Source: Verrucomicrobiota bacterium (GTDB lineage Bacteria; Verrucomicrobiota; Verrucomicrobiia; Opitutales; Opitutaceae). From it: 64,000 nucleotides of DNA. The stretch covers positions 62,001 to 126,000 of the forward strand of contig JACRKC010000083.1 in NCBI GenBank assembly GCA_016235555.1. Direction: 5' to 3'. A model generated the notes under the pieces. The model saw nothing but the letters and a program-made list of their open reading frames with translations, did no database searches and had not been told where the DNA came from. Within the stretch, counting starts at the first letter, position 1; every line of letters starts with the position of its first letter. Position numbers and translations under genes: made by a program. Below are positions 15,793 to 32,602 of the stretch, piece by piece.

Positions 15793-15825
15793 GTGGGTGG
15801 GGTCGCACTCTTCAACTCAAACTAC

Positions 15826-15865
15826 CGGGTCAGGCGGAATCCCTAAACGGATCCGTCGATTCCCG
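15826..15865 (-). repeat. Intergenic core element, copy 1 (upstream of STN-type receptor)
   Basis: On the plus strand this reads GGCGGAATCCCTAA, then ACGGATCCGTCGATTC. It matches the cores at 38243, 48707 and 52841, and more weakly 55291 and 62741. On the minus strand the TTTAGGGATTC block sits 56 bases before the GTG of the receptor, exactly the spacing seen at the orphan STN gene. Here it overlaps the last codons of the AraC gene. Confidence 0.6.
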
Positions 15866-16772: not shown

Positions 16773-16856
16773 TCCGTGCTTGGCTTGCGAGCGGGAAGGC
16801 GGTCTCGCGGCGTTTCGGCGAAATGATCCTGCGCTGCGGCGAAAGAGGTGGACCCG

Positions 16857-17894
16857 TTAGCCGCCCAAGAAGAGATCCACCGTCTCGCGCGTGACCGTGT
16901 AGGTGCCGGTGTTGTAGTTCGATCCGATGGGGAGAATCCCGGCCGCCTTGTCGTTTTTTGTGAACTTGATCGGCGAGTGGTTCAGGTCGAAGAGCGCCTT
17001 CACGCCGAGGTAGGTGAAGAGTTCACGCTTCTGCCCCACGCAGGCCGTGAGCACGCCCTCCTTGAGGAACCGCAGGTGGGCTTCCTCCGCGTCGACACAG
17101 GTGGCGAGGATTTTTCCCGCCTTGCCGGCTTCCTTGATTGCCTGGGCGATCCCCGGTCCGCTCTCGCTGTCAAAGCCGGCCATGCCCGCGAGATCGGGCG
17201 TGCCTTGAATGAGACCGGCAGCCACGCGGGTGGCTTCAGCCGTGTTGCCCTTGTCCTGTTGCGGCTCCATGCAGGACAGGCCGTGCTTTTCGGCGACGCC
17301 GCGAAACCCGGCGAAGGCCTTTTGAGACGTTTCCTGCTCGATGAGACCGAGCAGCGCTACGCGGCCCTTGCGGCCGGCGAGAGCCTTGACCATCGCCTCG
17401 GCCTGGCGGACGCCGATCTCGAACCAATCGGTGCCGATGAACGAGAGACGCCGGCTGGCGGGCACATCGCTATCCACACACACCACGGGAATACCGGCGG
17501 CGATCGCGGCATCGATGGGAGGGACGAGCGCGCTCGGATCCCACCCCACCACCATCATGCCAGCCGGCTTGCTGGCGGTGGTCTGTTCGATGGCGGCGAC
17601 GAGGCCCGGAATGTCCACGGAACTCGGGCCGGCGATGCTGACTGTGACCCCGAGTTCCTGTCCGGCGAGCCGGAGCGCCGGGTGATCGTGCTGGGTGAAG
17701 AGCGGCAGGTTGGCGTTGGCCGAGAGCCACACGTATACTTCATTGGGATGCGCGCCGCGGGTGCGGCCGGCGGACGGTGCGACGGTTTCGCGCTTTTCGC
17801 AGCCGCCGAGGCCGGCCACAGCGGCCGCGCCGGCACCAAGGGAAGCGACTTTTAGCAGATGACGACGAGTGAGGACGGGGTTGGTGGAGTGCAT
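16857..17894 (-). CDS. Sugar ABC transporter substrate-binding lipoprotein (ribose type)
   Basis: A 345-residue periplasmic binding protein of the ribose/galactose family (peripla_BP_4). The N-terminus combines a twin-arginine motif (TRRHLLKVASLG) with a lipobox (GLGGC), so it is probably a Tat-dependent lipoprotein. Typical motifs are GPSSVDIPGLVAAIEQ, the PAGMMVVGWDPSAL strand-loop and VVCVDSDVPASRR, in the ligand cleft between the lobes. It is the last gene of the operon that carries the permease and ATPase upstream (22 bp and 3 bp gaps). The operon context points to a branched sugar or sugar acid such as D-apiose, which is inference. Confidence 0.88.
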   Translation of the reverse strand: MHSTNPVLTRRHLLKVASLGAGAAAVAGLGGCEKRETVAPSAGRTRGAHPNEVYVWLSANANLPLFTQHDHPALRLAGQELGVTVSIAGPSSVDIPGLVAAIEQTTASKPAGMMVVGWDPSALVPPIDAAIAAGIPVVCVDSDVPASRRLSFIGTDWFEIGVRQAEAMVKALAGRKGRVALLGLIEQETSQKAFAGFRGVAEKHGLSCMEPQQDKGNTAEATRVAAGLIQGTPDLAGMAGFDSESGPGIAQAIKEAGKAGKILATCVDAEEAHLRFLKEGVLTACVGQKRELFTYLGVKALFDLNHSPIKFTKNDKAAGILPIGSNYNTGTYTVTRETVDLFLGG

Positions 17895-17916
17895 GGGGAA
17901 TAAAATGGGCGCAACT

Positions 17917-18888
17917 TCAACGCTGTTGCTTCCGGTTCAGCACCGAATCGATGGCGACGGCGAAGACGAGGACCAGCCCGAGAATGATGCCCTGCCACTC
18001 CGGACGCACTTGTTTGATGAGAAGCATGTTTTGAATCACGGCCACGAAGAGCACGCCGAGCAGCGCGCCCCAGGCCGTGCCACGGCCGCCTTGCAGGCTG
18101 GCGCCACCGAGAATGCAAGCGGTGATCGCGCCCAGTTCCTTGCCCATTCCCACCGTGCTGCTCGCGGTTGCGACGCGCGAGGCGTAGACGATGCCAGCCA
18201 GACCGGCGAAGAGTCCGACCAACGTGAACGCAATAATCTGCAGGCGTTCGACGTTGATGCCGCTGAGGTGCGCCGCCTTCGCATTCGAACCGATGTAGTA
18301 GAATTGCCGAAAGAAGCGCGTATGGGCGAAGCCATAATGCCCCACCGCGCCGAGAAAGATGACCAGCCAGACCGGAGCTTGGAGGCCGAGGAACTGCGTC
18401 TGGCCGAGCTGGGTGAACGAGGGCGGCAGAAAGGTGATGCCAGGGCCGCCGACGAGGAGCGCGATGCCGGAGAATATTCCCATCGTGCCCAAGGTCGTGA
18501 TCAGGGCGTTCACACGCACCTTGGCGACGACGACTCCGTTGGCGAATCCACTGAGGGCGGCGAGCGCGAGACCGCCGGCAATTGCGGCCGGCACGGGCCA
18601 GCCCGCGTGTTTCATGAGCCAGCCCGTGACGACCCCGACCATCGAGGCGGTCGCGCCCACGCTCAGGTCGAAGGTGCCACCGATCAACATCAGCATCATG
18701 CCAAGCGCGAGGATGCACTCGAAAGCCATGTTGCGAACGACCGACGCAAAATTATCGAAGGTGGCGAAGCGCTCCCAGGAGACGGGAAACAACACCCGAA
18801 ACACGACGAGGATGAGAACCAGCAACAGGAAGACGCCGATTTCACGGGTCGGCACGAAGCGGCGGCGGAGTTGGGGTTCCATGGGCAT
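17917..18888 (-). CDS. Sugar ABC transporter permease (RbsC family)
   Basis: A 323-residue integral membrane protein with about nine or ten hydrophobic segments. The family motif GGTFDLSVGATASMVGVVTGW follows the third segment, and GINVERLQIIAFTLVGLFAGLAGI lies in the C-terminal half, as in RbsC, XylH and AraH. It forms the inner-membrane channel with the ATPase encoded 3 bp upstream. The start ATG at 18888 (MPMEPQLRRRFV) keeps a short basic cytoplasmic leader before the first segment; an ATG two codons later is also possible. Confidence 0.9.
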   Translation of the reverse strand: MPMEPQLRRRFVPTREIGVFLLLVLILVVFRVLFPVSWERFATFDNFASVVRNMAFECILALGMMLMLIGGTFDLSVGATASMVGVVTGWLMKHAGWPVPAAIAGGLALAALSGFANGVVVAKVRVNALITTLGTMGIFSGIALLVGGPGITFLPPSFTQLGQTQFLGLQAPVWLVIFLGAVGHYGFAHTRFFRQFYYIGSNAKAAHLSGINVERLQIIAFTLVGLFAGLAGIVYASRVATASSTVGMGKELGAITACILGGASLQGGRGTAWGALLGVLFVAVIQNMLLIKQVRPEWQGIILGLVLVFAVAIDSVLNRKQQR

Positions 18889-18891
18889 GGG

Positions 18892-20439
18892 TCAATTCTT
18901 TCCGTCCCGAGCGGCGAGCCGCATCACCGTCTCCTCGTTCGCTCCGTCGCCGCTCACTTCGCCGGCGATGCGACCGGCGCGCATGACATAAATGCGGTCG
19001 CTGATGCGGAGCACCTCGGGGAGGTCGCTGGAAATCACCACGACGGCGTGCCCCTGTCGCGCATAGGCGCGCAGGAGCTGATGCACTTCGGCCTTGGCGC
19101 CGACATCCACCCCGCGCGTCGGCTCGTCCACGATCAGGACGCGCGGGTTGGCGAGGAGCCAGCGCGCCAGCAGCACTTTTTGCTGGTTGCCGCCGCTGAG
19201 ATGCGCCGTGTCTTGCTCGACCCCGCGGCACGCGATCCGGAGCTTGGCCACAAAATCGCGCGCCGCGCCCGACTCTTCGGTGTCGCGAAAAAACCAGCCG
19301 CCGAATTTCGCGAGCCGCGCGGCGCTGATGTTGCGCCGCACGCTCATGTCGAGAAAAAGCCCGGACTCCTTGCGATCCTCGCTCACATAGCCGAGCCCGG
19401 CGTCGATCGCGTCCGCCGGTGAACGGATCGATACGCGGTTTCCGCCGAGCCGAATCTCCCCGGCCCCCTGCGGCCTCGCACCGAAGAGCGTGAGCGCCGT
19501 TTCCGTGCGCCCGGCGCCGGCCAGCCCGGCGAGACCCACGATTTCGCCCGCTCGCGCGTGAAACGAAATGTCCTGCAGCATGGGTTTTCCACCTCCAGTG
19601 TCCGTCGGGTCGCTCAAGCCGCGGACGTCGAGCAGCACCGGTTGGACGGCCTCGCTGGCGCCGTAGTGGAATTTTTCGACGTCACGGCCCACCATCAAGC
19701 GGATCAAATCGTCGGCGGTGGTTTCCGCGACGGGCATGGTGCCCTGCCATGCGCCGTCTTTCAGGACGGTGACGCGGTCGGCGATGCCGAAAACCTCCTC
19801 CAGTCGATGAGAGATATAAACGACGCCGGTGCCCTGACTCTGCAACTGGCGGATAACCGCGAAGAGTCTGCGGGTCTCGGCGTCGGTTAGCGCTGCCGTG
19901 GGCTCGTCGAAGATCATCACCTTTGCGTCGAGCGACAACGCCTTGGCAATCTCCACCATTTGCTGCTGTGCCGGCGAGAGGTCAGCCACCGTCGCCTCGG
20001 TGGAGATATCGGGTGCGACGCGGGCCAGCACGGCGGCCGCAGAGGCATGCAGCTGGCGACGGACGACCATGCCCCAGCGCGTGACCGGTTGTCTTCCGGC
20101 GAAAATATTCTCCGCGACAGTCAGCGGCCCAAACAAGCTGCGTTCCTGAAACACGATGCCCACCCCCGCGTGCTGGGCCGCGTGCGCGCTAGCGAACCCC
20201 GCATGCGTCCGGCCGCCCAGAACGATTTCGCCGGCATCCGGCCGATGCACGCCGGCCAGGATATTCATGAGCGTGCTCTTGCCCGCGCCATTTTCGCCGC
20301 ACAGCGCATGCACTTCGCCTGCGCGAACCGTGAAGTCCACGCCCTTCAACACCTCGATCCCGGCAAACGTCTTCCGGATCTCGCGCATGGCGAGAAGCGG
20401 ATCGGGTTCCGCTCGTTGAGTTGTTGGTCCGACCGTCAT
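18892..20439 (-). CDS. Sugar ABC transporter ATP-binding protein, two nucleotide-binding domains (RbsA family)
   Basis: A 515-residue tandem ATPase, the usual RbsA/XylG/MglA length. The first domain has Walker A GENGAGKST and the signature region DLSPAQQQMVEIAKAL with a Walker B MIFDEPTAAL. The second has a degenerate Walker A (GLAGAGRTET) and the signature LSGGNQQKVLLARWL with VLIVDEPTRGVDVG. The asymmetry is normal for this family. It overlaps the stop of the apnL-like gene by 4 bp (ATGA), so transporter and catabolic genes form one transcript. Confidence 0.92.
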   Translation of the reverse strand: MTVGPTTQRAEPDPLLAMREIRKTFAGIEVLKGVDFTVRAGEVHALCGENGAGKSTLMNILAGVHRPDAGEIVLGGRTHAGFASAHAAQHAGVGIVFQERSLFGPLTVAENIFAGRQPVTRWGMVVRRQLHASAAAVLARVAPDISTEATVADLSPAQQQMVEIAKALSLDAKVMIFDEPTAALTDAETRRLFAVIRQLQSQGTGVVYISHRLEEVFGIADRVTVLKDGAWQGTMPVAETTADDLIRLMVGRDVEKFHYGASEAVQPVLLDVRGLSDPTDTGGGKPMLQDISFHARAGEIVGLAGLAGAGRTETALTLFGARPQGAGEIRLGGNRVSIRSPADAIDAGLGYVSEDRKESGLFLDMSVRRNISAARLAKFGGWFFRDTEESGAARDFVAKLRIACRGVEQDTAHLSGGNQQKVLLARWLLANPRVLIVDEPTRGVDVGAKAEVHQLLRAYARQGHAVVVISSDLPEVLRISDRIYVMRAGRIAGEVSGDGANEETVMRLAARDGKN

Positions 20440-22382
20440 GGCTGCAACTCCAGCCGCACGAGACCAAAGGGGGCCAGCTCGATCGGTATCTCGTGCTCTG
20501 CGGCAGGGACGAGTTCGCAGCCTATGCTGCGCAGGAACGAATCGGGCTCAAACTGCCACCGGCTTCCCGGCGAGAAATCGAGATCGAGTCGATGAGTAAC
20601 CCGGGTGAAGCCCGCCACGACGGCAGATTGGCGGATCGCGGTCAGGTTCGCGAGCCACAGGCAAGTGGAGTCGGCGTTGGCCAGCGCGATCGCCTCGACG
20701 CGAAGCGAGTCGGTGGAATGAGTGAGTAGGACCTCGCTGCCCGCGAACGCACCGAGCGCGCCGAGCGCATAAAACACAGGAAACATCTGGCCGGGCAGCG
20801 ACGGGAATCGGCTCGGCAATGGAGAACCGGACTCGCGTTCCATGACGCCCCGCCAGCCCGTCGTTTCAAAGAACGTCACGCTCGCGGCGCCTTGCTCCGC
20901 GAGATGTTTGATCATCGCCAGCGTCCAAGCCGCCAGAAACGGCGACAACTGACGCGAATCCACCGGCGGCGGCAGTTCACCGGGTGCCGGAGGTTTTTCA
21001 CTGGCGGTCGCGACGGGATTAAGGCGAGGCTTGAGTGTCACCGGCGACACCACGAGCGGTTTGTTCGGGAAAAATTCTCGTGCGCTTTCGAGCTGAGCTG
21101 CGACGGCGGCGGGCGTTTCAGCGATCGAAGCCAGGTCGAACGCATGCACCTGCGGGTTCATCGACCAATGCACAAAGTCGGCTTGTTCGTGCGGCGGCCT
21201 GAACTGGTTGAGCTGGTAGAAATCCGCATCGGTGCCGGCGCCGATGGGCACGCCGAGCGGTGTCAGCCGCGGGCGCGCGAGGGCGAGGCTGGCGGCCGAG
21301 GCGGTTTTTTCCCCGGTGCGAAACAACAGGACGCGAACGACGGCGGCGGACCTCGCCCGGAGTTGGCGAACGAGTTCGTCGAGTTCCCGCTCTCCGCCCT
21401 GCGCGGGCAGATGCACCGCGAGTTCGAGCGGGATGCGAAGCTGCGCCGACTGATGCTGCGACAGCGTCAACCTCTCCAACCAGTCCGACTGACCAAGCCG
21501 AACCTCGGCGCGAAGGTGGGCGAGCCGCAGTGTGCCCACCCGCGCCGCCTCCCGGGCCGTGAGCGGCTGTCCGTGCGAGGCGCTGCCGATACCGATCGCC
21601 GGGAGCGGCCGGCGAACGCTCGTCAGAGCAATGCGGAGTGGCGGCCGAACTTCGGCGGCGATGGCGGGAAGCGGCCGGCGGGCATTGAGCTTCAGGAGAA
21701 TCTCCTGGCGGATGCGCGTGAGCGCCGGCACCTCGACCGGATAAGGGAGATGCAGCGGCGTGCAAAACGTCTTGAAGCTCGCGTCGATCCAGTTGCGCTG
21801 GTCCTCCATCTCGAACCGCTCGCCGGTGAAATGCAGCTCTGCCCACATGCCCGGGGTGACCTCATGGGCAAGCGCCGCCAAGTCGTGGATGCCCGGAACC
21901 GGTTGCGCGGCCTCGACCAGCCGGGGAAACATCACCTCGGCCCGCGGGCCGGCGCCCCGCTCGGCGAGGCAGCGCCTCCCGGCGCAATCGGCTGGATGCA
22001 GCACGCAGAAACCTATGCGATTGCGCAGAAAGGTCGTTCGCGCTTCTCCGTCGAATGTGAAGCGGATGGTCCCGTTGGCCTGGCCAGTGATCTCCGCCCG
22101 CCAGACGAAATGAATCTCGTCGCGCCGGTGCGTGCTCGCATAGGTCAGGCGAAAGCTGTCCGGTCCGGCATTCATCCGAAGATCCGAAATCTCTGCGGGC
22201 ACGGTGCCCCAGTTCCGGTCGCGCACGGCGGCGTAGATGCGGCGGATGATTTCGTGCTCACCGAGCTTGATATAGCGCAGGTCGCCGTCTGCGAAGATCA
22301 TCGTGAGAGGGCCGGCGCGCAGCGAAACGTGATCGGCAGGCGCAGACGTTGCGGCGGGCGAATGCGCCAGGGACTCACTCAT
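20436..22382 (-). CDS. apnL: Probable D-apionolactonase (apnL family, glycosidase-related fold)
   Basis: The start is the ATG at 22382 (MSESLAHSPAATSAPADH), which overlaps the end of the neighbouring dehydrogenase gene by 8 bp; the longer frame upstream is shadow. The protein is 648 residues. The opening LRAGPLTMIFADGDLRYIKLG, then RIYAAVRDRNWGTVPAEISDL and FLRNRIGFCVLHPADCAGR, is the pattern I know from the D-apionate lactonase family. The middle is a TIM-barrel-like region (about 300-560) and the end a beta domain. The enzyme opens D-apionolactone, the product of D-apiose dehydrogenase, to D-apionate in the cytoplasm. The neighbouring apiose-dehydrogenase-like gene supports the call. It rests on remembered family patterns, not on a search. 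Confidence 0.65.
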   Translation of the reverse strand: MSESLAHSPAATSAPADHVSLRAGPLTMIFADGDLRYIKLGEHEIIRRIYAAVRDRNWGTVPAEISDLRMNAGPDSFRLTYASTHRRDEIHFVWRAEITGQANGTIRFTFDGEARTTFLRNRIGFCVLHPADCAGRRCLAERGAGPRAEVMFPRLVEAAQPVPGIHDLAALAHEVTPGMWAELHFTGERFEMEDQRNWIDASFKTFCTPLHLPYPVEVPALTRIRQEILLKLNARRPLPAIAAEVRPPLRIALTSVRRPLPAIGIGSASHGQPLTAREAARVGTLRLAHLRAEVRLGQSDWLERLTLSQHQSAQLRIPLELAVHLPAQGGERELDELVRQLRARSAAVVRVLLFRTGEKTASAASLALARPRLTPLGVPIGAGTDADFYQLNQFRPPHEQADFVHWSMNPQVHAFDLASIAETPAAVAAQLESAREFFPNKPLVVSPVTLKPRLNPVATASEKPPAPGELPPPVDSRQLSPFLAAWTLAMIKHLAEQGAASVTFFETTGWRGVMERESGSPLPSRFPSLPGQMFPVFYALGALGAFAGSEVLLTHSTDSLRVEAIALANADSTCLWLANLTAIRQSAVVAGFTRVTHRLDLDFSPGSRWQFEPDSFLRSIGCELVPAAEHEIPIELAPFGLVRLELQP

Positions 22383-23412
22383 GGCTGAAGTGGACGACGA
22401 CATTGCGCGAAGCCGAGTCATAGGCGCCAAAGACGAGCTGCAACGTTTTGAGGTTGTCCACTCCCGTGGTTTCGGCGGCAACTTCGCCGCGCAGCGCGGC
22501 GAGCAGGTTCGCGTGGCAGGGCACGATGCTCGCGTGAGCGATATCGTAGGCCGGATCGGCCCACGCATAACGCATCGGCGGGTGCCGGGTGATTTGCGTG
22601 CCGCGCGCGGTGGTGACTCGGAGGCGATAGGCGGACCCCAGCTCGATCGAGCCGAGCGGGCCTTCGATGAAGGCGAGCGTTTCCGGGAAGCACTCGCGCT
22701 CAAGCGGCGTCTTCGCGAAGGCCATTTCGATCACGACGCTAGTCCGCGCTGCTCCCATCGTGAGCATGACCGTCGCCACGTTTTCACCTTTCACCGCGGG
22801 TGCGAGCGTGCGATGGGTCTGGCAATAAAGGGACGAGGCCTCGCCAAAGCAGGCGCGTGCCGTATCCAGCAAATGCGTGCCCAGATCGGTCAGGATGAAT
22901 TGCTCGAGGTCGGCCAGCGCCGGCTGGTTTACCCAGCAATCGAAACCGGAGACCATCGTGAAGCGCGCCCGAAAGGGCGTCCCGATGACGCCTTCGGCGA
23001 GCCGTTGGCGCAGGGCAAGCATCGGCGCCTGCGACCGCCAGTTTTCGTGCACCAGGAACGGCGTTTTCGCTTTTCGAAAGGCCGCCACCATCTCTTCCGC
23101 GTCGGCCAGCGACGCGGCCATGGGTTTCTGGCAGATGCACGGGATGCCATGCCGGGCGCAGAGGAGCGACAGTGGCTTGTGCCCGCCGACCTCGGTGATG
23201 TTGTCGACGAAGTCCGGCCGCACCTCGCGCAGGAGCTTTTCCGCGTCGTCATAGACGGCGGGGATGTGGAAATCACGCGCCAGCGCCTCGGCCTTGGCGC
23301 GCGTGCGATTGTAGATCGCCACGCACTCGACGCCGGGAATTTCTCGCCAGGCGGAGAGTTGATAGCGCGGCCAGAAGCCGGCCCCGAAGATGGCGAAACG
23401 CATGGATTTCAC
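22375..23412 (-). CDS. apsD: Gfo/Idh/MocA oxidoreductase, probable D-apiose dehydrogenase (copy 1)
   Basis: A 345-residue NAD(P)-dependent enzyme. The Rossmann start is FAIFGAGFWPRYQLSAW, followed by VAIYNRTRAKAEALA, and the conserved CQKPMA motif (the EKP-type loop with the catalytic Lys) is at about 100. HLLDTARACFGEA holds the usual His/Asp pair of the C-terminal beta-sheet domain. The GAGFW...ECVAIYNRTRAKAE pattern resembles the D-apiose dehydrogenase subgroup, which oxidises D-apiose to D-apionolactone. It lies directly upstream of the apnL-like lactonase, the enzyme for the next step. A paralogue is encoded at 29340-30365, roughly half identical by eye. Confidence 0.65.
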   Translation of the reverse strand: MKSMRFAIFGAGFWPRYQLSAWREIPGVECVAIYNRTRAKAEALARDFHIPAVYDDAEKLLREVRPDFVDNITEVGGHKPLSLLCARHGIPCICQKPMAASLADAEEMVAAFRKAKTPFLVHENWRSQAPMLALRQRLAEGVIGTPFRARFTMVSGFDCWVNQPALADLEQFILTDLGTHLLDTARACFGEASSLYCQTHRTLAPAVKGENVATVMLTMGAARTSVVIEMAFAKTPLERECFPETLAFIEGPLGSIELGSAYRLRVTTARGTQITRHPPMRYAWADPAYDIAHASIVPCHANLLAALRGEVAAETTGVDNLKTLQLVFGAYDSASRNVVVHFSHE

Positions 23413-23419
23413 GTCGCGT

Positions 23420-24352
23420 CTATGCGGCCAGAGCGAACGTGCGTTCGAGTCCCTTGATCAAACCGATCATGGCGCGGTTGCACGGAGTGGCGATGTTCAG
23501 CCGCGTGCCCGCTTCGACGATCGCCCCGCACATCACGTCGATTTCGGTCCGCCGACGGTTTTCCACGTCCTGATACATCGAGCCCTTGGTGCCCGGCGCG
23601 AGCTTGCGTAACAGTCCGGTGATGGCTTCCCAGCGTTCGTCGAAATCGAGCGGGATGCTTTGGGCGTTGGCCACCGCCACGACCTCGTGGAGCAAATCTT
23701 TCATCAGCTCCTGCATTTCCGGGGCGTCGAGGAGCCGGTCCGCCGTGATGCGGACCGTGGACGACGTGGGCAGCGTGGCGACGTTGAGCGCGAGTTTGGA
23801 CCAGATTTCCTTGAGCACCTGACCGCTGGGCTCCACCGCGATTCCAGCATCGTTGAACGTCTTCACGATCGACTGGAGCCGCGGGCGATCGAGTCCATCC
23901 AACTCGCCGACGAAGGTCTTCCCCTGCCCGGCGTGGAGCACATGGCCGGGGGCCAGGACGGTGGCACTGTGATAACAGACCCCCAGCACCACGCGTTCAG
24001 CGCCGACCAGTTGGGCGATCCGCGGGCCGTTGCCCCAGCCGTTTTGCAACGAAAGGACGGTGGTGTGGGGCCCGATGATGGGCAGCGCACTCCCCACCGC
24101 ATCGGCCGTCTGATAACATTTGACGAAGACGATCAGCAGATCGACGACGCCGATGGTGGCGGGTTGGTCAGTGATCTGCACCCTGACCGTGCGTTTGTTG
24201 CCCGCCTTGTCTTGGATGATGAGTCCGCGTGAACTCACCGCATCAATGGCGGGCCGCGAGACATCGATGAGGGTGACGGCATTGCCGGCTTCGTGGAGCA
24301 ATGCGCCGATGGCGCTGCCCATTGCTCCTGCTCCGAGGATTGCGATTTTCAT
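23420..24352 (-). CDS. Ketopantoate reductase family (PanE/ApbA) dehydrogenase
   Basis: The start is the ATG at 24352 (MKIAILGAGAMGSAIG), which overlaps the kinase stop by 4 bp and gives 310 residues, the normal family length. GAGAMG is the NAD(P)-binding loop, and KEIWSKLALNVATLPT carries the catalytic Lys. The C-terminal helical domain has the usual TEIDVMCGAIVEAG end. PanE reduces ketopantoate in coenzyme A synthesis, but a copy inside a catabolic operon more likely oxidises or reduces a 2- or 3-hydroxy acid. A role on D-apionate, in place of the known ApnO oxidoisomerase (which I recall as belonging to another family), is a hypothesis. Confidence 0.75.
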   Translation of the reverse strand: MKIAILGAGAMGSAIGALLHEAGNAVTLIDVSRPAIDAVSSRGLIIQDKAGNKRTVRVQITDQPATIGVVDLLIVFVKCYQTADAVGSALPIIGPHTTVLSLQNGWGNGPRIAQLVGAERVVLGVCYHSATVLAPGHVLHAGQGKTFVGELDGLDRPRLQSIVKTFNDAGIAVEPSGQVLKEIWSKLALNVATLPTSSTVRITADRLLDAPEMQELMKDLLHEVVAVANAQSIPLDFDERWEAITGLLRKLAPGTKGSMYQDVENRRRTEIDVMCGAIVEAGTRLNIATPCNRAMIGLIKGLERTFALAA

Positions 24353-25821
24353 GGATTTGTAAGGGAAAGTGAAGGCTGCGGCATGGTGGCACTGCGGCCC
24401 ATGCGGCCATAAACGTCCGCGAGTGCATGGAGGTCGCCGACGTTGCCCGGAAAAACGATGTAGGGCATCCCGGGAAACCGTGACTCCGGTCCCAGTCGCC
24501 AGACCGGCACGCCCGGCACGATCTGACCCAGCACCATCGCGCGGCGCACGCCGAGGGCGCGGGTGGCGAGGTCGCTGGATGTAATCCCGCCCTTGGCCAC
24601 GAGAAAAGCGGGGCGTTTCCGCAGGGAATGCACGAGTTCGACCAATGCGGTCGAAATCTTCGCGCCGACTTCCAGGCCCAGTGCGCCGTCGTCGCCTGTC
24701 ACCAGCGCCCTGCTGGTGAAGAGCACGACGTCGCGGCCGGCGGCGAGGGTATCCGACATCAAAGTGCGGACACGTCCGATCTCCGCTTCGCGCTGGGCCG
24801 GTGCCAGCACGCGCGGGACGCTGAGCTCCACCGGGAGGAGAGTGGCCTCTGTGCCGGTCGCTGCGACGCGCAAAAGCTCGGCGAGCTGGTGACTCGATTT
24901 CGGCACGTAGGAGCCGACGACCACGAGCCCGCCATTCGCCTGGGCCGGCGCAGTCCCGTCGAACGTCGGACGCCAGCGGGCCTGTTCCATGAGCCCGAGC
25001 CGGCTCGCGACGAACTGAGCGGCGGTTCGAAAGAGAAAACGCCGGCCGGCCGCCTCCGCCTGGAGCGCGGCGAACATGAAGACATCGAGATCGCCCGGAC
25101 ACGCGGCGTTGACGATCACCGTCGAGCCAGGCGGCAGCCGCTCAAGCCGGGCCGCAATCGCGCCCGGACCGCGCGATCGAATCTCGTCGATTGAGATGCT
25201 GACGACCGCTTTCGCCGGTATGGCGCCGCCCGTTTTCTCCGCAATCCAATCGCGGAGATTCGATGAGCGATACCCGAAGGCAGCATCGTGTGCGAATGCC
25301 GTGGCCGCCGCCGGGATCAGGGTGTCGCCGTCGGCGACGTAGTGGGTGTCGTGAATCGTGTAGCGTCCGCCCGCCTCGAAATAGGGCACGAGCACGGTTG
25401 CGTCGAACGGCCCAAGTTCCTCGGCCAAAACATCGGTTTCCAGCGGATAATGTCCGCGCAACGTCGAGTCACTCCGGCTCACGAGAACGAAGCGCCGGCC
25501 GCTGCGGACGGCGGCGGACCGTAGATTGCACGCGAGGTGGCGCGCCAGATCGCGCGCCCGCTCGGGCGGCAAGCTGCGCGAATTCGTGAGCACATAAAAA
25601 CAGGGTGCCGCGTCGGCGAGCTCCGTTGCCAGCTCCTCGACGCCCCACGATGTGAGCACCGGCACGTCGTAGACGGTCTGGGTGCCCGTAGGATCGTCGT
25701 CGAGCACGACGAGTTTTGCAGCGAGCGCTCCCGCAGCCTTGCGAATCGCCACCTGCAGGTCCGTGGGCCAGGGCGACGGGAGCGAGGCGAAAAGCTGCGC
25801 TTTGGAGATGGGCTCGTTCAT
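24349..25821 (-). CDS. Four-carbon acid sugar kinase family protein (DUF1537)
   Basis: A 490-residue two-domain kinase. The N-terminal domain opens with VVLDDDPTGTQTVYDVPVL and contains SRSDSTLRGHYPLETDVL, which binds the sugar acid. The C-terminal ATP-binding domain has AKGGITSSDLATRALG and the IVFPGNVGD end. Known members phosphorylate D-threonate, D-erythronate, L-threonate or, in apionate breakdown, 3-oxo-isoapionate (OiaK). The operon context makes the last plausible, with erythronate-type substrates as the alternative. It is translationally coupled to the PanE-like gene (ATGA) and starts 7 bp after the phosphotriesterase-VOC stop. Confidence 0.82.
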   Translation of the reverse strand: MNEPISKAQLFASLPSPWPTDLQVAIRKAAGALAAKLVVLDDDPTGTQTVYDVPVLTSWGVEELATELADAAPCFYVLTNSRSLPPERARDLARHLACNLRSAAVRSGRRFVLVSRSDSTLRGHYPLETDVLAEELGPFDATVLVPYFEAGGRYTIHDTHYVADGDTLIPAAATAFAHDAAFGYRSSNLRDWIAEKTGGAIPAKAVVSISIDEIRSRGPGAIAARLERLPPGSTVIVNAACPGDLDVFMFAALQAEAAGRRFLFRTAAQFVASRLGLMEQARWRPTFDGTAPAQANGGLVVVGSYVPKSSHQLAELLRVAATGTEATLLPVELSVPRVLAPAQREAEIGRVRTLMSDTLAAGRDVVLFTSRALVTGDDGALGLEVGAKISTALVELVHSLRKRPAFLVAKGGITSSDLATRALGVRRAMVLGQIVPGVPVWRLGPESRFPGMPYIVFPGNVGDLHALADVYGRMGRSATMPQPSLSLTNP

Positions 25822-25828
25822 GGGCGGT

Positions 25829-27295
25829 TCAAGCGCCGGTGACTTCCACCTGCACGTCCTGCGTCATGGTTTTATCGAGGAATAGCGCCCGTTTCCCTTG
25901 CACGCCCTGATGAATCGTTGGAGCGACCGGCAGGCCGGCAATGGGGAATTCAACGAAGGCCTGGGCGACATCATCGATCTTAAAACAGAAATGGTGCAAT
26001 CCGGGTCCATGTTGGGCCAGCCACGCCCGCAACGGGTGATCGGGCGTGAGCGGCTCCACCAATTGCAGTTGGGTATTGCCGAGATCCAGATGGGTCAACC
26101 GGGTGGCGCCGCCGGCGACCTTCTCGCTAAACAGGACCGAGAAGCCAAACCGGTCCCGCCAAATCTTTAGGGCCTCCTCCGTGCTGGCTACGGCGATGGC
26201 CAAGTGGTCCAGGCCCTTGAACATGTTCATCTCTCCGGCCGCCGCCGATTGTCTGGCGTAGTTCTTAAACGGGAACACCCGCTTGGGGTTTTCGACCATG
26301 ATCGTCCGGATCTGCTCATCCGTGATGCCGGCCTCCCGGAACATCGGCACAATCCTCTTGAGGAGGTTGTCGTAACCATAGCCGCCATTCTTTTTGTAGC
26401 ACACCTGAGCGCACAAATCCTGCGAGATCAGCAGTTGTTCTAGGCAGCCCCGGTCGATCAGGGATTTCGTCGCGGCGACGGGATCCTCGGTGCCCTTGAG
26501 CTGCCGCACAACGTCCGGGAATAGCTCCATGCCGAAGAGATCCAGTTCCACGTAGCAACCGCGCCCGGCCAGCGCCACGCAACGGTCAACCTCTTCGAGG
26601 CGGGGCGGAAGGTGACTGATGACCACGCGAGAAAGGTCGGCGCCCGCCTGCTCCAAGATGTCCAACGCATAATGATGCTCAACGGGAGTGGTCTGGATGT
26701 CGAAGTGCAGATTGACGGCGGCACCGGTTGCCTTCTGGGCTTTCGCCGTGGCCCGAAGCTGCCGCTCCTCGAAGGCGGTGATGGGACGGCTCACGCCGAT
26801 CTCGCCGATCACGCCCGCATGAACCCCGTCGACGCCCTCGACGACGTCGCGGACGATTTCCTGGGCGATGGTCTCCTCCGACTTTGCCCGCACGGCGTCC
26901 GACTGCTTCGTGTCCTTGTAGTAGCCGCATCCCATCACGACCTGAACGCCCGTTTGCTCCGCGATTCGCTTCATCGCCGCCGGGTCGCGGCCAATTCCAA
27001 AGTTGGTCAGCTCGACGAGCGTCTTGCCACCAGCGAGGGAGAACCATCGGAGTTCGGACGTTGCCAGCGCCTCGTCCGTCAAGTCCACGTCGGGGCCATG
27101 GTGAACGATCAGCAGATGCTCGTGGGGCAACGTGATTCCCATTTGGTCGGCCGAAATTAGGCCCGTGACCGTCATCACCTTGCCCTCCCACGCGGCCGTC
27201 ACGGCGGCCGCGGAGGCGAACAAGGAACCTCCGAAATTTTCCTGCCCGGGTTGATTCGACGGTGACGCTTCAGTTTCTTGCGCGGCGGGTTTCAT
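25829..27295 (-). CDS. Phosphotriesterase-family hydrolase fused to a VOC (glyoxalase-like) domain
   Basis: A 488-residue fusion. Residues about 40-350 are an amidohydrolase-superfamily phosphotriesterase barrel with a full metal set: HEHLL (HxH), GEIG (Glu in the place of the bridging Lys), NLHFD, ISHLPP and SQDLC. Residues about 358-487 are a vicinal oxygen chelate module like methylmalonyl-CoA epimerase: GLDHLAIAV, LQLVEPL, GPGLHHFCFKIDD and VQVEV provide the His/Glu ligands. Both halves look active. Phosphotriesterase relatives are often lactonases or phospho-sugar lactonases, and VOC modules epimerise, isomerise or cleave C-C bonds. A single polypeptide doing ring opening and isomerisation of a sugar-acid intermediate would fit the operon. 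No known step is assigned. The first 45 residues are low in complexity. Confidence 0.8.
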   Translation of the reverse strand: MKPAAQETEASPSNQPGQENFGGSLFASAAAVTAAWEGKVMTVTGLISADQMGITLPHEHLLIVHHGPDVDLTDEALATSELRWFSLAGGKTLVELTNFGIGRDPAAMKRIAEQTGVQVVMGCGYYKDTKQSDAVRAKSEETIAQEIVRDVVEGVDGVHAGVIGEIGVSRPITAFEERQLRATAKAQKATGAAVNLHFDIQTTPVEHHYALDILEQAGADLSRVVISHLPPRLEEVDRCVALAGRGCYVELDLFGMELFPDVVRQLKGTEDPVAATKSLIDRGCLEQLLISQDLCAQVCYKKNGGYGYDNLLKRIVPMFREAGITDEQIRTIMVENPKRVFPFKNYARQSAAAGEMNMFKGLDHLAIAVASTEEALKIWRDRFGFSVLFSEKVAGGATRLTHLDLGNTQLQLVEPLTPDHPLRAWLAQHGPGLHHFCFKIDDVAQAFVEFPIAGLPVAPTIHQGVQGKRALFLDKTMTQDVQVEVTGA

Positions 27296-27354
27296 GGCGG
27301 CTCTTTTTTGGCTGGGATGTTTTGACGGCGAACTCGTGATTGTGTGCGGCGCGG

Positions 27355-28290
27355 TCAGGAATTCGGTCGTGTGACGAACTTGTAGCGGTCCTCGACCACA
27401 GGATTCACGAGCTTGCCGATGCCGCTGATTTCGAGTTCGCAGCGGTCGGCGTGCTTCAGGAAGACCTGCGGATGGCGAAAGAAGCCGACTCCGGCGGGCG
27501 TGCCGGTGGTCATCACGTCACCGGGTTCGAGCGTTGTCCCCATCGACAGCCACTCGAGCATCCGCGGGAGGGGGAAACACCAATCCTCGTTGGTGCGATC
27601 CTGCATGACCTTGCCGTTCAGCTTCAGCGAGAGGCGCAACTTGGACGGGTCGGGAATCTCGTCGGCGGTCACGATGCACGGCCCCATGGGCGCGAACGTG
27701 TCGAAGTTTTTTCCCATGTCCTCGTTCTTGTCCTTGAACTGGACCCACCGGGCGGAGACGTCGTGCAGGATCGTGTAGCCGAAAATCGCGCCCATCGCTT
27801 GCGGCTGCGTGAGCCGGCGAGCAATCCGACCGATGACAACCGCGAGCTCGACTTCGTAGTCCACCTGAAACTTCTCGCCCGGAGACACAATGGGCGCGCC
27901 GGGGCCGACGACGGCGGACGATACCTTCACGAAGAAGCGCGGGTCGGCGAGCATCTTGCAGCCCGGCTCCTCTTCGATGTGACTGTTGTAGTTGAGCCCG
28001 GCGCAGAAGATCTTTCCGGGGCGCGGCAGAGGGGCGAGCAACTTCACCTTGGCGAAGTCGCGCGTGAATGCCTTGGCGGCGTTCGGGTTCTTTCTCGCGA
28101 AGACGAGCGCCTGCCGTGCAGCCTTGAGCGCTTTTGCGCCGCCGCGGATGAGATCGAGCATCGTCGGCGCGAGCACGGCGGACTTGCGACCGAGCCGTGC
28201 GGCGTGTGCGGCGTTGAGATCGACGAGCCGGCCGTCGAGCGCGGCACCGATGCGTTGCTGTTTCTTGGATTCGTAGGTGTATAGTTTCAT
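27355..28290 (-). CDS. Fumarylacetoacetate hydrolase (FAH) family protein
   Basis: A 311-residue protein with an N-terminal cap (MKLYTYESKKQQRIGAALDG) and the FAH catalytic core. Signatures are FCAGLNYNSHIEEE, FQVDYEVELAVVIG (two of the metal acids), GYTILHDVSAR and the late TTGTPAGVGFF. Members hydrolyse or decarboxylate beta-diketo and 2-keto acids, and several sugar-acid pathways end with such an enzyme acting on a 2-oxo-3-deoxy or 2,4-dioxo acid. It would be a sensible late step here. A decayed relative lies at 32270-32602. Spacing to neighbours is 39 and 59 bp. Confidence 0.85.
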   Translation of the reverse strand: MKLYTYESKKQQRIGAALDGRLVDLNAAHAARLGRKSAVLAPTMLDLIRGGAKALKAARQALVFARKNPNAAKAFTRDFAKVKLLAPLPRPGKIFCAGLNYNSHIEEEPGCKMLADPRFFVKVSSAVVGPGAPIVSPGEKFQVDYEVELAVVIGRIARRLTQPQAMGAIFGYTILHDVSARWVQFKDKNEDMGKNFDTFAPMGPCIVTADEIPDPSKLRLSLKLNGKVMQDRTNEDWCFPLPRMLEWLSMGTTLEPGDVMTTGTPAGVGFFRHPQVFLKHADRCELEISGIGKLVNPVVEDRYKFVTRPNS

Positions 28291-28329
28291 GGTCGTTTGA
28301 AGTGCGTTGAACGGGAGAGCGGCAAGCGG

Positions 28330-29343
28330 CTAAACGGGCTTGGCCACGAGCACGCTCATGAAAGATGCGGTGGGCACGACGCGCTCGAGTTGGAACCCGG
28401 CGTGAGCGAGCAGCACGCGGAACTCTTCCTCGGTGCGCTCCAGCCCGCCGGTGAGGACAAGCATATGGATGTCCATGAGCTTCGCGAGGCTCGGTCCATC
28501 ACCGGACGGGATGATTTTCTCGACGATGAGCAGCCGCGCGACAGGCGTCATGGCGCGGCGCAACGTGGCCAAAAGTCTGAGCGCGGATTCGTCATCCCAG
28601 TCGTGCAGGATATGCGACAGGACATACGCGTCGCCCCCGGCGGGAACGCTGACGAAGAAATCGCCGCCGATTGGCTCGCAGCGCGAAGCGACTCCCGCTT
28701 CGCGCAGCGGCCCGCCCGCACCGGCGATGACGTGGGGCGCGTCAAACAGGATGCCGCGGATCGCAGGATGCCGCGCGAGGATGAGCGCGAGCAACTGGCC
28801 ATGGCCGCCGCCGATGTCGGCCACACAGCGAAAGCCCCCGAAGTCGAACGCCTCCACGACTGCCCGGTAGTTTTGCGCGGCGAACTGCGTCATGGTCTCG
28901 TGGAATGCCGCGGCCATGCCCGGATGGCCCTGGAGCCAGGTGAAGTGATCCGCGCCGTGAACCCGATCGAACGCCGGCTGCCCGGTTTGCACCGAATGGA
29001 GCAGCGCGCCCCACGCCGCGTAGTCCTTGCCGCCGGAGACGATGGCCCGCGCGTGCAGCGAGCCGGGACGGTTTTTCTGGAGCAACTCACCAAGCGAAGT
29101 AACGGCAAACATGCGCGGCGCGACCTCGGTGAAGAGTCCCTCGGCGGCGAGCGCCCGCAGCACCCGGTGCAACTCCCGCGCACGCACGCCGCACTCCGCC
29201 GCAAGCGCCTCGCTGGTTCGCGAGCCGTCGGCCAGCCGATCAGCGATTTCCAACCGGGCGACGACGTGGATCAATTGCGTCACCCAGTAACCGGTGATCA
29301 AGCGCAGCAGATGCTGCGGCGGTGATTGTTCGGTCGCGTTCAC
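28330..29343 (-). CDS. SAM-dependent O-methyltransferase (AdoMet_MTases 2 family)
   Basis: The start is a GTG at 29343 (VNATEQSPPQHLL), which overlaps the stop of the upstream dehydrogenase as GTGA and gives 337 residues. The N-terminal part is a winged-helix dimerisation domain (SRTSEALAAECGVRARELHRVLRALAAEGL). The Rossmann part has VADIGGGHGQLLALIL for SAM, and SHILHDWDD holds the catalytic His-Asp, as in hydroxyindole and polyketide O-methyltransferases. Known relatives methylate phenolic or enol hydroxyls, so a methyltransferase inside a sugar-acid operon is unexpected. The substrate is not known. The 585-codon frame listed through the neighbour is not real before this point. Confidence 0.85.
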   Translation of the reverse strand: MNATEQSPPQHLLRLITGYWVTQLIHVVARLEIADRLADGSRTSEALAAECGVRARELHRVLRALAAEGLFTEVAPRMFAVTSLGELLQKNRPGSLHARAIVSGGKDYAAWGALLHSVQTGQPAFDRVHGADHFTWLQGHPGMAAAFHETMTQFAAQNYRAVVEAFDFGGFRCVADIGGGHGQLLALILARHPAIRGILFDAPHVIAGAGGPLREAGVASRCEPIGGDFFVSVPAGGDAYVLSHILHDWDDESALRLLATLRRAMTPVARLLIVEKIIPSGDGPSLAKLMDIHMLVLTGGLERTEEEFRVLLAHAGFQLERVVPTASFMSVLVAKPV

Positions 29344-30365
29344 TTGAGGTGGATCGCCCGGCCGCTGCGGGCGGAATCGTAGGCGGCGAAGGCGAGGCGC
29401 AGCGTCTTCAGGTTGTCGTCGGCGCTGGTTTCGGCGCGTCCGCGGCGCCGAATCGCTTGCAGGAGATTCTGGTGGCAGGGCACGATGGCGGCCTGGGATA
29501 GATCGTAGGCAGGATCGGCCCACGGGTAGCGCGGCGGCGGGTGACGCCGCGCGTGCGTGCCGTCCTTCGTCGTGACGCGCAGCCAGTGGCCGGGCGCAAG
29601 TTCGAGGGTGCCCTTGTCGCCCTCGACGAAGACCAGCGTTTCCGGGAAGCATTCCTTTTCGACAAAATTTTCGGCCAGTGCGAGATGGCACGAGACGGTC
29701 GCGCCGCTCTCCATGCCGAGGACAATCGTGGCGACATCCTCGCCCCTGATGTGGCGATGAATCCGCTGTGTCCGGCAATAAACGCTCGCCGCCTCCCCGA
29801 GGACGAAGCGTGCCATGTCGAGGATATGCACGCCCAGGTCGGCGATGATGTATTGCTCCAGTTCGGCGAGAAACGGCTGCATCGTGATGTCGGGAAAACC
29901 CGAGATGCTGTCGAACCGCGCGCGAAAGGGCGTGCCGATCGTGCCACGCGCGAGCTCGGCGCGGAGCGCGCGAATCGGCGTCTGCCAGCGATAGTTCTCG
30001 TGGATCAAGAACGGCACGCGAGCGCGACGGCACGCAGCGACCATGCGGTTGCACGCGGCGAGCGTGGGCGCCATCGGCTTCTGGCAAATCACGGGCAATC
30101 CGTGTTTCGCCGCCAGCAGGACAAACTCCTCGTGGGTGTCATTGCCCGTGGCGATGTCGACGAAATCGATCCGCTCGCGGCGGAGCATTTCGCGGGGATC
30201 GTCGTAAATGGCGGGAATGCCGAACTGCGCGGCGAGTTTTTCCGCCTTGGCACGGGTGCGGTTGTAGATGGCGACACACTCGACGCCCTTGAGTTCACGC
30301 CACGCCGCGAGCTGGCACGGCGCCCAAAAACCGGCGCCGAAAAAGGCAAAGCGAAGCGTTTTCAT
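29340..30365 (-). CDS. Gfo/Idh/MocA oxidoreductase, D-apiose-dehydrogenase-like (copy 2)
   Basis: A 341-residue paralogue of the protein at 22375-23412, with the same opening (FAFFGAGFWAPCQLAAW, then ECVAIYNRTRAKAEKLA), the CQKPMAPTL loop, HILDMARFVLGEA, and a matching C-terminus around HPPPRYPWADPAYDLS and DDNLKTLRLAFAAYDSA. The two clearly arose by duplication and then diverged. Having two in one operon may mean two stereoisomers or two oxidation steps. It is coupled to the methyltransferase by a GTGA overlap, and is 100 bp downstream of the alcohol dehydrogenase. The gene symbol is withheld because only one copy is likely to be the apiose enzyme. Confidence 0.78.
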   Translation of the reverse strand: MKTLRFAFFGAGFWAPCQLAAWRELKGVECVAIYNRTRAKAEKLAAQFGIPAIYDDPREMLRRERIDFVDIATGNDTHEEFVLLAAKHGLPVICQKPMAPTLAACNRMVAACRRARVPFLIHENYRWQTPIRALRAELARGTIGTPFRARFDSISGFPDITMQPFLAELEQYIIADLGVHILDMARFVLGEAASVYCRTQRIHRHIRGEDVATIVLGMESGATVSCHLALAENFVEKECFPETLVFVEGDKGTLELAPGHWLRVTTKDGTHARRHPPPRYPWADPAYDLSQAAIVPCHQNLLQAIRRRGRAETSADDNLKTLRLAFAAYDSARSGRAIHLK

Positions 30366-30465
30366 CTCGGTTGGAGCTTGGGCTTTCCGTGCGGCATTCG
30401 CGTTTTCGATGCGGCCTCGGGGTCGGGCACGGCGCCGGCAAGATGATCGGGCCGTGCAAACATAG

Positions 30466-31476
30466 TCAGGAGAGCAGCACGGCTTTGTGCATCGCCGCCG
30501 GATTCTGATGGAGCCGGGCGAAGACGGGCACGGCGTCCCAAAGCGGAATGTGGGTCGCCACCTTGGGATATTTCACCGCGCCGCTCGCGAGCAACGCGAG
30601 TGCCTCGGGAAAACAGTCTACGGAATTTCGCGAACCGAGCAGGTTCACTTCCTTGCGGGTGAAATCGAGTCCTGGCAGCGTGACACCGACGCCTCGCTTC
30701 ACCAATCCGACGATGACCACCCGCCCGCCCGGCGCGACGAGGTCGACGGCCTGCTCGATGGCCTTGGTGCTGCCGGTCGCCTCGACGACGATGTCGGCGC
30801 CATCGCCGGCGGTCTGCTCAAGGACCGTTGCGGCCAGCCGCTCGTCGGCCTTCAGGGTTTGCGCGCCAAGCTCGCGCGCAAAGGCGAGCCGATCCTCGTT
30901 GAGATCGGTGACGACCACTTGCGCGCCACGGAGCCTCGCGACTTCAAGGATCGCCAAGCCGATCGGACCCGCGCCCAGAATCAGACAGTATTCGCCCGCC
31001 ATGACACCGCCGCGCCGACAGGCGTGCAGACCGATCGTCAGGGGTTCGGCGAAACTCGCGATCACCGGATCGAGCCCCGGCGGCACCCGGTGAATGTTCC
31101 GCTCCGGCGCCACGCAGAATTCGGCAAATCCTCCGGGCCGGTGCAGGCCAATGAGATTGAAATTCGCGCAACAGTTCGGTTTGCCGTGGCGACACGGATG
31201 GCATCGCCCGCACCCGACGACGGGCTCGATGACGACGAGGTCGCCGCGTCGGCAGCGTTGCACGTCGGCGCCGGTCTCGACCACCTCGCCGCAGATCTCG
31301 TGTCCGCCAACCAGCGGAAATTTCGCATAGGGACTCCGGCCGGCATAGAGATGGAGATCTCCCGCACAGACGCCGGTGGCTCGGGGCCGGATGACCACGT
31401 CGTTCGGGCCGCAGCTCGGTGCGGGCCATTCGCCGATCGTCAATGCCTCGGGGCCGGATAGGATGAGTGCTTTCAT
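30466..31476 (-). CDS. Zinc-dependent medium-chain alcohol dehydrogenase
   Basis: A 336-residue MDR enzyme of the sorbitol/threonine dehydrogenase type. Catalytic zinc ligands are the Cys in CAGDLHLYAG and the GGHEICGEVVETG His-Glu. The structural zinc site is GCGRCHPCRHGKPNCC with four Cys. The cofactor site is LGAGPIGLAILEVARLRGA, followed by DLNEDR, whose Asp points to NAD. It oxidises a secondary alcohol of a polyol, sugar or sugar acid. It heads the run of catabolic genes and lies 16 bp after the lactonase-like gene. Confidence 0.88.
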   Translation of the reverse strand: MKALILSGPEALTIGEWPAPSCGPNDVVIRPRATGVCAGDLHLYAGRSPYAKFPLVGGHEICGEVVETGADVQRCRRGDLVVIEPVVGCGRCHPCRHGKPNCCANFNLIGLHRPGGFAEFCVAPERNIHRVPPGLDPVIASFAEPLTIGLHACRRGGVMAGEYCLILGAGPIGLAILEVARLRGAQVVVTDLNEDRLAFARELGAQTLKADERLAATVLEQTAGDGADIVVEATGSTKAIEQAVDLVAPGGRVVIVGLVKRGVGVTLPGLDFTRKEVNLLGSRNSVDCFPEALALLASGAVKYPKVATHIPLWDAVPVFARLHQNPAAMHKAVLLS

Positions 31477-31492
31477 GGCTGGTGGATTACGA

Positions 31493-32263
31493 TTACAGGT
31501 CGAGCCAGTCGCCCGGTCTTAAGACCACACTCTCTCCGATGAGGTCGCCACGAGCTTTTGCCGCGGCGTGCAGTTTTTGGAATTCGGCGAGATCGGCGTT
31601 TTCATCCGGGTTGATATAGTGGCACGGCAGGATGGTTTTCAGGCCGAGCCATTGCGCGGCGAGAATCCCTTCGCGCGGGCTAAGTTCGCTCGTGAGCATT
31701 TCGCCCGGCGCCGGGAAACGCCCGAGTATTTCCTGCGGGTTGGCGATCCCGATGGCGCCAATCGTGGGGCGATAGAGCTCCGCCTGCAGCTTCATGTCGC
31801 TGAAGAGCGCCGTGTCGCCGTAGTGATAAAATCGGTGCCCCCCACCGAGTTCGATGACGAAGGCCATCGGCACGCCGCTGGCGAACGCGCCATCGGGCAT
31901 CCGGATTTGCGACCAGTGGTGACACTCGACCGGTTGCACCTCCACGCCGGCCACGCGCACCTTGATCCCCCACGTCGTGGCGCGGATCTGTAGGGCGGGA
32001 ACGCCTTTGGCCATGAGATAGGCCTTCACCTCGCCGCCACAGATCACCGGGCACCCGTGCCGCTTCGCGATTTTCTCGGTATCGCCCAGATGATCGATCG
32101 CGGCGTGAGAAACAACGATGACATCCACTTTCTCCAGCTCGTCGGACTTCACTGGATTGCCGGGGCAGTCGTCGAGAAAGGGATCGACGAGGATCCGGCG
32201 ACCGGTGGTGTCGATCAGTTCGTAAGCGGCAACGCCGAAGAAACGGAGTTTGGCGGTAGGCAT
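31493..32263 (-). CDS. Metallo-beta-lactamase-fold hydrolase, UlaG / UPF0173 type
   Basis: A 256-residue protein with the metal motif SHAAIDHLGD (HxxxDH), a second site around PVECHHWSQ, YHYGDTALFSDM with the bridging Asp, and a final PCHYINPDEN His. The compact form without extra domains resembles L-ascorbate-6-phosphate lactonase (UlaG) and the UPF0173 hydrolases. In this operon a lactonase acting on a sugar-acid lactone or its phosphate is the best guess. It may be the first intact gene of the transcript, as only the FAH pseudogene lies between it and the intergenic region. Confidence 0.8.
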   Translation of the reverse strand: MPTAKLRFFGVAAYELIDTTGRRILVDPFLDDCPGNPVKSDELEKVDVIVVSHAAIDHLGDTEKIAKRHGCPVICGGEVKAYLMAKGVPALQIRATTWGIKVRVAGVEVQPVECHHWSQIRMPDGAFASGVPMAFVIELGGGHRFYHYGDTALFSDMKLQAELYRPTIGAIGIANPQEILGRFPAPGEMLTSELSPREGILAAQWLGLKTILPCHYINPDENADLAEFQKLHAAAKARGDLIGESVVLRPGDWLDL

Positions 32264-32269
32264 GATGGG

Positions 32270-32602
32270 TTAGGGTTTCTCAACGAAATCGTCGGTTAGG
32301 TTAGGTTTTCGCGGGGAATGTTTTTGAGGGAAGCGATATTCGTCCGGCACGAACCGATTGACCAGTCTGCCGATGCCGCCGGCCACCACGTCGCCGCGCT
32401 CCGGCGTGATGCCCACGGTGGACCACTCCAGTAGACGCGGCCGCGCGAAACACCTGTCTTCGTCGGTGCGATCCTGCATTGCCTCGCCATTGAGCTTGAG
32501 CGAGAGCCGCCCCGCGTCGGCCGCGTTCAAGTCGATCAGGCGGCCGGCCAGTTCGGCACCGAGTCTGATCTGGTTTTTCAGGGCAATGGAATAGAGACGC
32601 AT
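32270..32602 (-). pseudogene. FAH-family pseudogene with two internal in-frame deletions
   Basis: The 110-codon frame aligns in three blocks to the intact FAH protein at 27355-28290. Residues 1-31 match its N-terminus (MRLYSIALKNQIRLGAELAG). RLSLKLNGEAMQDRTDEDR and the following LLEWSTVG match positions near 210-250, and GIGRLVNRFVPDEYRF matches the C-terminus. The blocks are joined without frameshift, so two deletions removed roughly 180 and 25 residues, including the metal-binding acids and the active-site loop. A short unrelated tail follows. The product cannot be an active hydrolase. It lies directly before the UlaG-like gene and probably stays transcribed. Confidence 0.75.

Follow-up and report, generated by a model that had tools for sequence, protein, structure and literature searches.

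Fused gene and operon

The window, by which we mean the whole stretch of 64,000 bases analysed here, carries on its reverse strand a gene in which a phosphotriesterase (PTE)-like hydrolase is followed by a VOC domain (Table 1). Both domains are recognized by Pfam within one reading frame, which bears out the proposal of an earlier note that two metal enzymes of unrelated families are joined here in one chain. The PTE match scores 232.4 bits (gathering cut-off 22.4) and covers positions 1-297 of the 298 in its profile, and the VOC half, which is methylmalonyl-CoA epimerase (MMCE)-like, scores 57.8 bits with PF13669 (cut-off 27) and 44.9 bits with PF00903 (cut-off 20.6). Residues 1-36 have no Pfam match, and translation may start downstream of the annotated ATG. 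An AlphaFold prediction run without an alignment (mean pLDDT 43.0, pTM 0.41) was too low in confidence to use.

Table 1. Positions of the fused gene, its parts and the surrounding operon in the window
Feature	Position	Strand	Basis or remark
AraC-type regulator, sugar-type periplasmic binding protein, permease and ABC ATPase, same operon	15843..20439	-	
Gfo/Idh/MocA oxidoreductase 1 (GFO1)	22375..23412	-	Pfam
ApbA/PanE-like reductase	23420..24352	-	domain match
DUF1537-type sugar-acid kinase (SBD_N + NBD_C)	24349..25821	-	Pfam; begins 7 bases past the fusion stop
Fused ORF, PTE-like hydrolase + VOC domain, 488 aa	25829..27295	-	single open frame, ATG start
VOC domain, residues 363-472	25880..26209	-	Pfam Glyoxalase_4 PF13669, E 1.6e-15
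Extra stretch GFO2-OMT-FAH-PTE between ADH and working VOC	26216..30410	-	not at this place in L069
Linker, residues 344-357 (~14 residues)	26225..26266	-	between usual PTE end and usual VOC start
PTE domain, residues 47-341	26273..27157	-	Pfam PF02126, E 1e-68
FAH-family hydrolase, working copy	27355..28290	-	domain match
O-methyltransferase-like gene (OMT)	28330..29295	-	Pfam; start approximate
Gfo/Idh/MocA oxidoreductase 2 (GFO2)	29340..30365	-	Pfam
Decayed 5' stub of older VOC gene, 54 bases	30411..30464	-	directly after ADH gene; aligns with L069 VOC start
Zinc-type alcohol dehydrogenase (ADH)	30466..31476	-	Pfam
Metallo-beta-lactamase-fold (MBL) hydrolase	31493..32263	-	domain match
Decayed FAH copy, two internal deletions	32270..32602	-	at ancestral FAH place; tblastn E 1.4e-17

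To place the two halves among known proteins, we compared them with named families and solved structures. The PTE half scores below the cut-offs of the named NCBI equivalogs (PRK09875, 156.9 of 486 bits; OPH, 79.9 of 500; phospho-furanose lactonase, 74.8 of 630). It shares its Pfam family, over the whole domain, with the resiniferatoxin-binding protein 3k2g, with 9efa, with PTER and with E. coli PHP (1bf6/4lef), and its nearest solved relatives are the PTE-related proteins 3k2g and 9efa. Like the fusion, 3k2g, 9efa, 4lef and 1bf6 have Glu in the bridging position; unlike it, they are single-domain chains of 291-364 residues, whereas here a VOC domain follows. The VOC half belongs by profile to the fold family of the VOC protein 3oa4 (E 1.1e-25) and human MMCE (3rmu, E 6.3e-24) and has the same ligand pattern. 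It differs from MMCE in its score with TIGR03081 (73.5 bits, under the curated cut-off of 114.95) and in the genes beside its relatives, which form a sugar-acid kinase cluster.

The residues expected to bind metal are strongly conserved in both halves. We take the identity of these ligands from knowledge of the families rather than from a structure model of the fusion. The PTE-family pattern (HxH, a bridging Lys or Glu, two further His and an Asp) corresponds to H58, H60, E165, H197, H228 and D293: in an alignment of the fusion with 18 relatives, E165 is found in 18 of the 19 rows, the remaining one having Lys, and the other five are identical throughout (19/19). When the VOC half was aligned with 23 relatives, H364, Q411 and E484 were present in all 24 rows, H435 in 23 and the adjacent H434 in 22; E484 lies just past the end of the Pfam match (472). 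The alignment columns thus agree with the earlier note, which had seen the His, Asp and Glu ligands of both folds and a Glu in the PTE bridging position, and both halves presumably bind metal. We also considered using the second catalytic Glu of MMCE, which we place in the GVREAML stretch, as a test of MMCE identity. This column is Leu in 24/24 VOC rows but varies among solved MMCEs as well (6xbv has Glu, 6xbr Leu and human 3rmu Val); since human MMCE itself lacks the Glu in this column, the Leu speaks neither for nor against MMCE identity.

Read along the reverse strand, the gene order is MBL, ADH, the VOC stub, GFO2, OMT, FAH, PTE-VOC, DUF1537, ApbA and GFO1, followed by an unmatched ORF, the ABC ATPase, the permease, the binding protein and the AraC-type regulator. 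By its gene content the operon serves sugar uptake and catabolism, and probably the breakdown of a sugar acid. The substrate of the kinase cannot be read from its family since its NCBIfam matches fall far below their cut-offs (3-oxo-tetronate kinase, 32.5 versus 350 bits); DUF1537 members include four-carbon sugar-acid kinases, as far as the available text of PMC10971088 goes. A GGAG lying 8 bases upstream of an ATG inside the VOC half was tried as the remnant of a Shine-Dalgarno motif and rejected: among 32 chosen gene starts in the window, taken as predicted, such motifs precede two, no more often than at random positions (7.5%), and the GGAG is therefore uninformative as to whether VOC is also made separately. 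The organism behaves as if it rarely used Shine-Dalgarno motifs.

Authenticity and distribution of the fusion

The fused gene is base-for-base identical in a second assembly, CANJIU010000001.1, which by its coordinates corresponds to contig C1 of genome G530. Over the 64,000 bases the two differ by 13 mismatches and no indel, with none inside the fused gene; a comparison of the first 17,464 bases accounts for five of these differences, again all outside it. The alternative that a sequencing or assembly error created the joint, and that the living cell has two separate genes, draws on two observations: the homologues are split everywhere else searched, and a one-base change would put a stop in frame near the usual end of PTE proteins. 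As the two assemblies agree in each base of the gene, and as no indel occurs across 64 kb, a single-base artefact is disfavoured and we regard this alternative as very unlikely. The joint therefore looks genuine, with the reservation that the reads of the two assemblies may not be independent. The earlier note had said that always-split homologues together with a single-base artefact at the joint would count against a true fusion; the homologues are indeed split in all other genomes with a listed match, while the single-base artefact found no support.

We also asked if G530 represents a second genome with the fusion. The window contig occurs nearly unchanged in this public MAG bin, which belongs to another genus and has 8% contamination. 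The bin of the window genome (G000) and G530 are different genomes, since a piece of G000 contig C72 reaches no more than 74% identity in G530. In composition, pieces of contig C49 correlate at 0.981 with other G000 pieces (11) and at 0.847 with other G530 pieces (7), which assigns the window contig to G000 and not to G530. On these two grounds G530 was rejected as a second carrier; its copy of the contig is probably mis-binned, and the fusion thus represents one species, a member of the Opitutae, seen in two assemblies.

To see how widespread the architecture is, five overlapping genome sets within the phylum were searched (141, 387, 252, 372 and 384 genomes, 1,536 genome searches, with cut-offs of 1e-10, 1e-25, 1e-25, 1e-45 and 1e-45, respectively); in the four larger sets, scoring covered part of the first-look candidates of each genome. 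Among the matches listed, no other open frame held both halves, and only G000 and G530, with the same contig, carry the architecture. A few VOC or PTE matches extend partly across the joint, and those reaching far contain stop codons. The closest VOC relatives in these sets have 74% identity and the closest PTE relatives 42%. The search outside the phylum covered plasmids and phages: none of 165 matching plasmid records (best 38.8% identity) and none of 10 matching phage records covers 80% of the query, the phage records with PTE matches being mainly short unannotated pieces. Two scans of viral contigs gave no relative, and a scan of genome contigs returned solely the CANJIU010000001.1 copy. 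The same architecture, sought across Verrucomicrobia as the earlier note had proposed, was thus seen in one species only, and the best reading is that the fusion is recent and restricted to one lineage.

Taken alone, the event concerns a single lineage and is of a common kind. The earlier note knew of no fusion like it, and we likewise found no described PTE-VOC case in the literature, as far as the accessible portions of the sources extend; the part of a fusion survey that is available names DUF1537 and neither glyoxalase nor lactonase (PMC4921024). Fusions of sugar-acid enzymes are already known. Plant LTD joins LtnD, OtnK and OtnC in one chain (PMC12540250, excerpted text) and so, like the fusion, holds consecutive sugar-acid enzymes in one polypeptide; by the same excerpt its enzymes are others and it is kept through land plants, whereas the PTE-VOC fusion is known from one species. 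Within the gene cluster of the VOC relatives there is another fusion, in genome G217, where a PF04199 cyclase-type hydrolase and a DUF1537 kinase share one open frame of 862 aa (L081:6539-9124, reverse strand).

Neighborhood of the VOC relatives and origin of the fusion

We then examined 34 places with a VOC relative, including the window genome's own copy on contig C85; the count does not extend to the VOC-type places in G591, G592, G601, G622 and G539 or to a short piece in G036. In 21 of the 34, the VOC gene has a DUF1537 kinase gene on its own strand no more than 200 bases away. Anywhere in the stretch, DUF1537 is found at 25/34 places, Gfo/Idh at 23/34, a PF04199 cyclase at 19/34 and Iso_dh at 18/34. 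No PTE was found near a VOC relative (0/34); 10 of the 34 stretches do not exceed about 3.4 kb, and for these the absence of more distant neighbors means little. The PF04199 hydrolase and Iso_dh are absent from the annotated window stretch, which has PTE, MBL, FAH, ADH and ApbA instead. VOC, DUF1537 kinase, Gfo/Idh, PF04199 cyclase and Iso_dh form a conserved cluster in many Opitutae relatives (L069-L082, L094-L105 and others), accompanied in some genomes by an MFS transporter and a XylR-like regulator. We found no name in the literature for the pathway of this cluster.

The origin of the fusion can be followed by comparison with a homologous operon on contig C85 of the window genome (locus L069), which has the order ADH-VOC-DUF1537-ApbA-GFO and no PTE. 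The collinearity of this operon with the window extends over both flanks (14238-24597, as three gap-broken stretches, and 30411-32253), and its VOC gene starts immediately after the ADH stop, where the window has the VOC stub. The stub aligns with a score of 57, compared with at most 32 in 2,000 shuffles. From this comparison and the two stubs it follows that the working VOC and FAH genes stand at new places and that the old copies have decayed. We propose that the extra stretch was placed between ADH and a working VOC gene, that the PTE gene became continuous with this VOC gene as consecutive operon genes fused, and that the original copies of VOC and FAH decayed to stubs. The stubs leave a readable record of an operon taking in a replacement stretch.

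Among 252 genomes of the family neither PTE nor OMT has a close relative (best 42% for PTE; for OMT, 36% in a single genome once the two bins with this contig are set aside), and this suggests that both came from an outside source. The DUF1537 kinase shares 52% identity with its L069 counterpart, against 68-88% for ten other operon proteins, and for this reason the kinase was considered as a possible part of the replacement stretch. The tree is not decisive on this point: in it the window, L069 and L096 form one group that is not strongly supported (91/90). Neither the DUF1537 nor the VOC tree resolves the source of the working copies.

Proposed function

Our preferred reading is that this is a genuine, recent and lineage-specific fusion within a catabolic operon, probably encoding a two-domain hydrolase and epimerase/isomerase of sugar-acid catabolism. 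Sugar-acid chemistry is plausible because the VOC family adjoins DUF1537 kinases and the operon has a sugar-type ABC transporter. The N-terminal, dinuclear-metal barrel would hydrolyse a sugar-acid derivative at a lactone or amide bond, making or freeing the acid; the C-terminal, mononuclear-metal VOC domain would move a proton next to a carbonyl; and the acid could then be phosphorylated by the kinase encoded just downstream. Proton transfer is the expected chemistry of the VOC half by analogy with MMCE, a metal-assisted epimerase that uses a Glu/Glu pair according to the text available of PMC8142540. We infer both activities, the order of the steps, the substrate and the joined form as the working form in the cell. 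A more elaborate version is decidedly tentative and on the doubtful side: in an undescribed Opitutae sugar-acid pathway, PTE would open the lactone or amide, VOC, as a proton-transfer enzyme of a type so far unlinked to DUF1537 kinases, would set stereochemistry or carbonyl position for phosphorylation, and an unstable intermediate would be handed over within the chain.

Other readings concern the coupling and the chemistry of the halves. The fusion could be an accident of a lost stop codon, neutral in effect, with halves doing unrelated jobs and no catalytic coupling. Its occurrence in one species would fit this, as would the shortness of the linker, with a neighboring-frame stop just past the PTE end, and the lack of PTE beside VOC relatives, which leaves the pair no history of working together. 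However, the older VOC gene is a stub, so that the fused domain replaces the operon's only other VOC and the joined form would have to supply the step, and every VOC ligand residue is kept; we therefore hold a neutral accident to be somewhat unlikely. A further MMCE-like VOC is encoded elsewhere in the genome (L002). A PTER-like amidase, or some hydrolase other than a lactonase, is a real possibility for the PTE half. Mammalian PTER is an amidase that hydrolyses N-acetyltaurine, its model best matches 3k2g, and its metal residues include H26, H28 and E169 (PMC11374699, as far as its available text goes). Since PTER is an amidase and the nearest solved chains, 3k2g and 9efa, are PTE-related, an amide substrate is no less possible than a lactone; E165, standing where others have Lys, recalls E169, and PTE need not be the lactonase because the operon keeps a separate MBL hydrolase. 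The sugar-catabolic setting, here and at two rhizobial plasmid relatives of PTE (38.8% and 36.8% identity) that adjoin sugar transporters and ribokinase, nevertheless favors a sugar derivative, possibly an N-acyl sugar. Finally, the best-named relatives of the VOC half are MMCEs, but an MMCE fused to a hydrolase is scarcely credible given the shortfall against TIGR03081 and the sugar-acid kinase genes beside the relatives.

Like the acid-sugar pathways of OtnK, DtnK and DenK, the operon has a DUF1537 kinase, here next to the fusion, together with dehydrogenases and a sugar transporter. The available descriptions of those pathways mention no VOC or PTE step, whereas the operon has both. The fusion ties together two protein families that are otherwise not neighbors and so offers a clue to the role of the VOC protein found alongside DUF1537 kinases across many genomes of the Opitutae; for this step the literature searched has so far yielded no name. 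In genome G031 a DUF5060/apiosidase-like glycosidase gene (L071:5925-7958, reverse strand) adjoins the VOC-kinase cluster, a hint that may point to the natural substrate.
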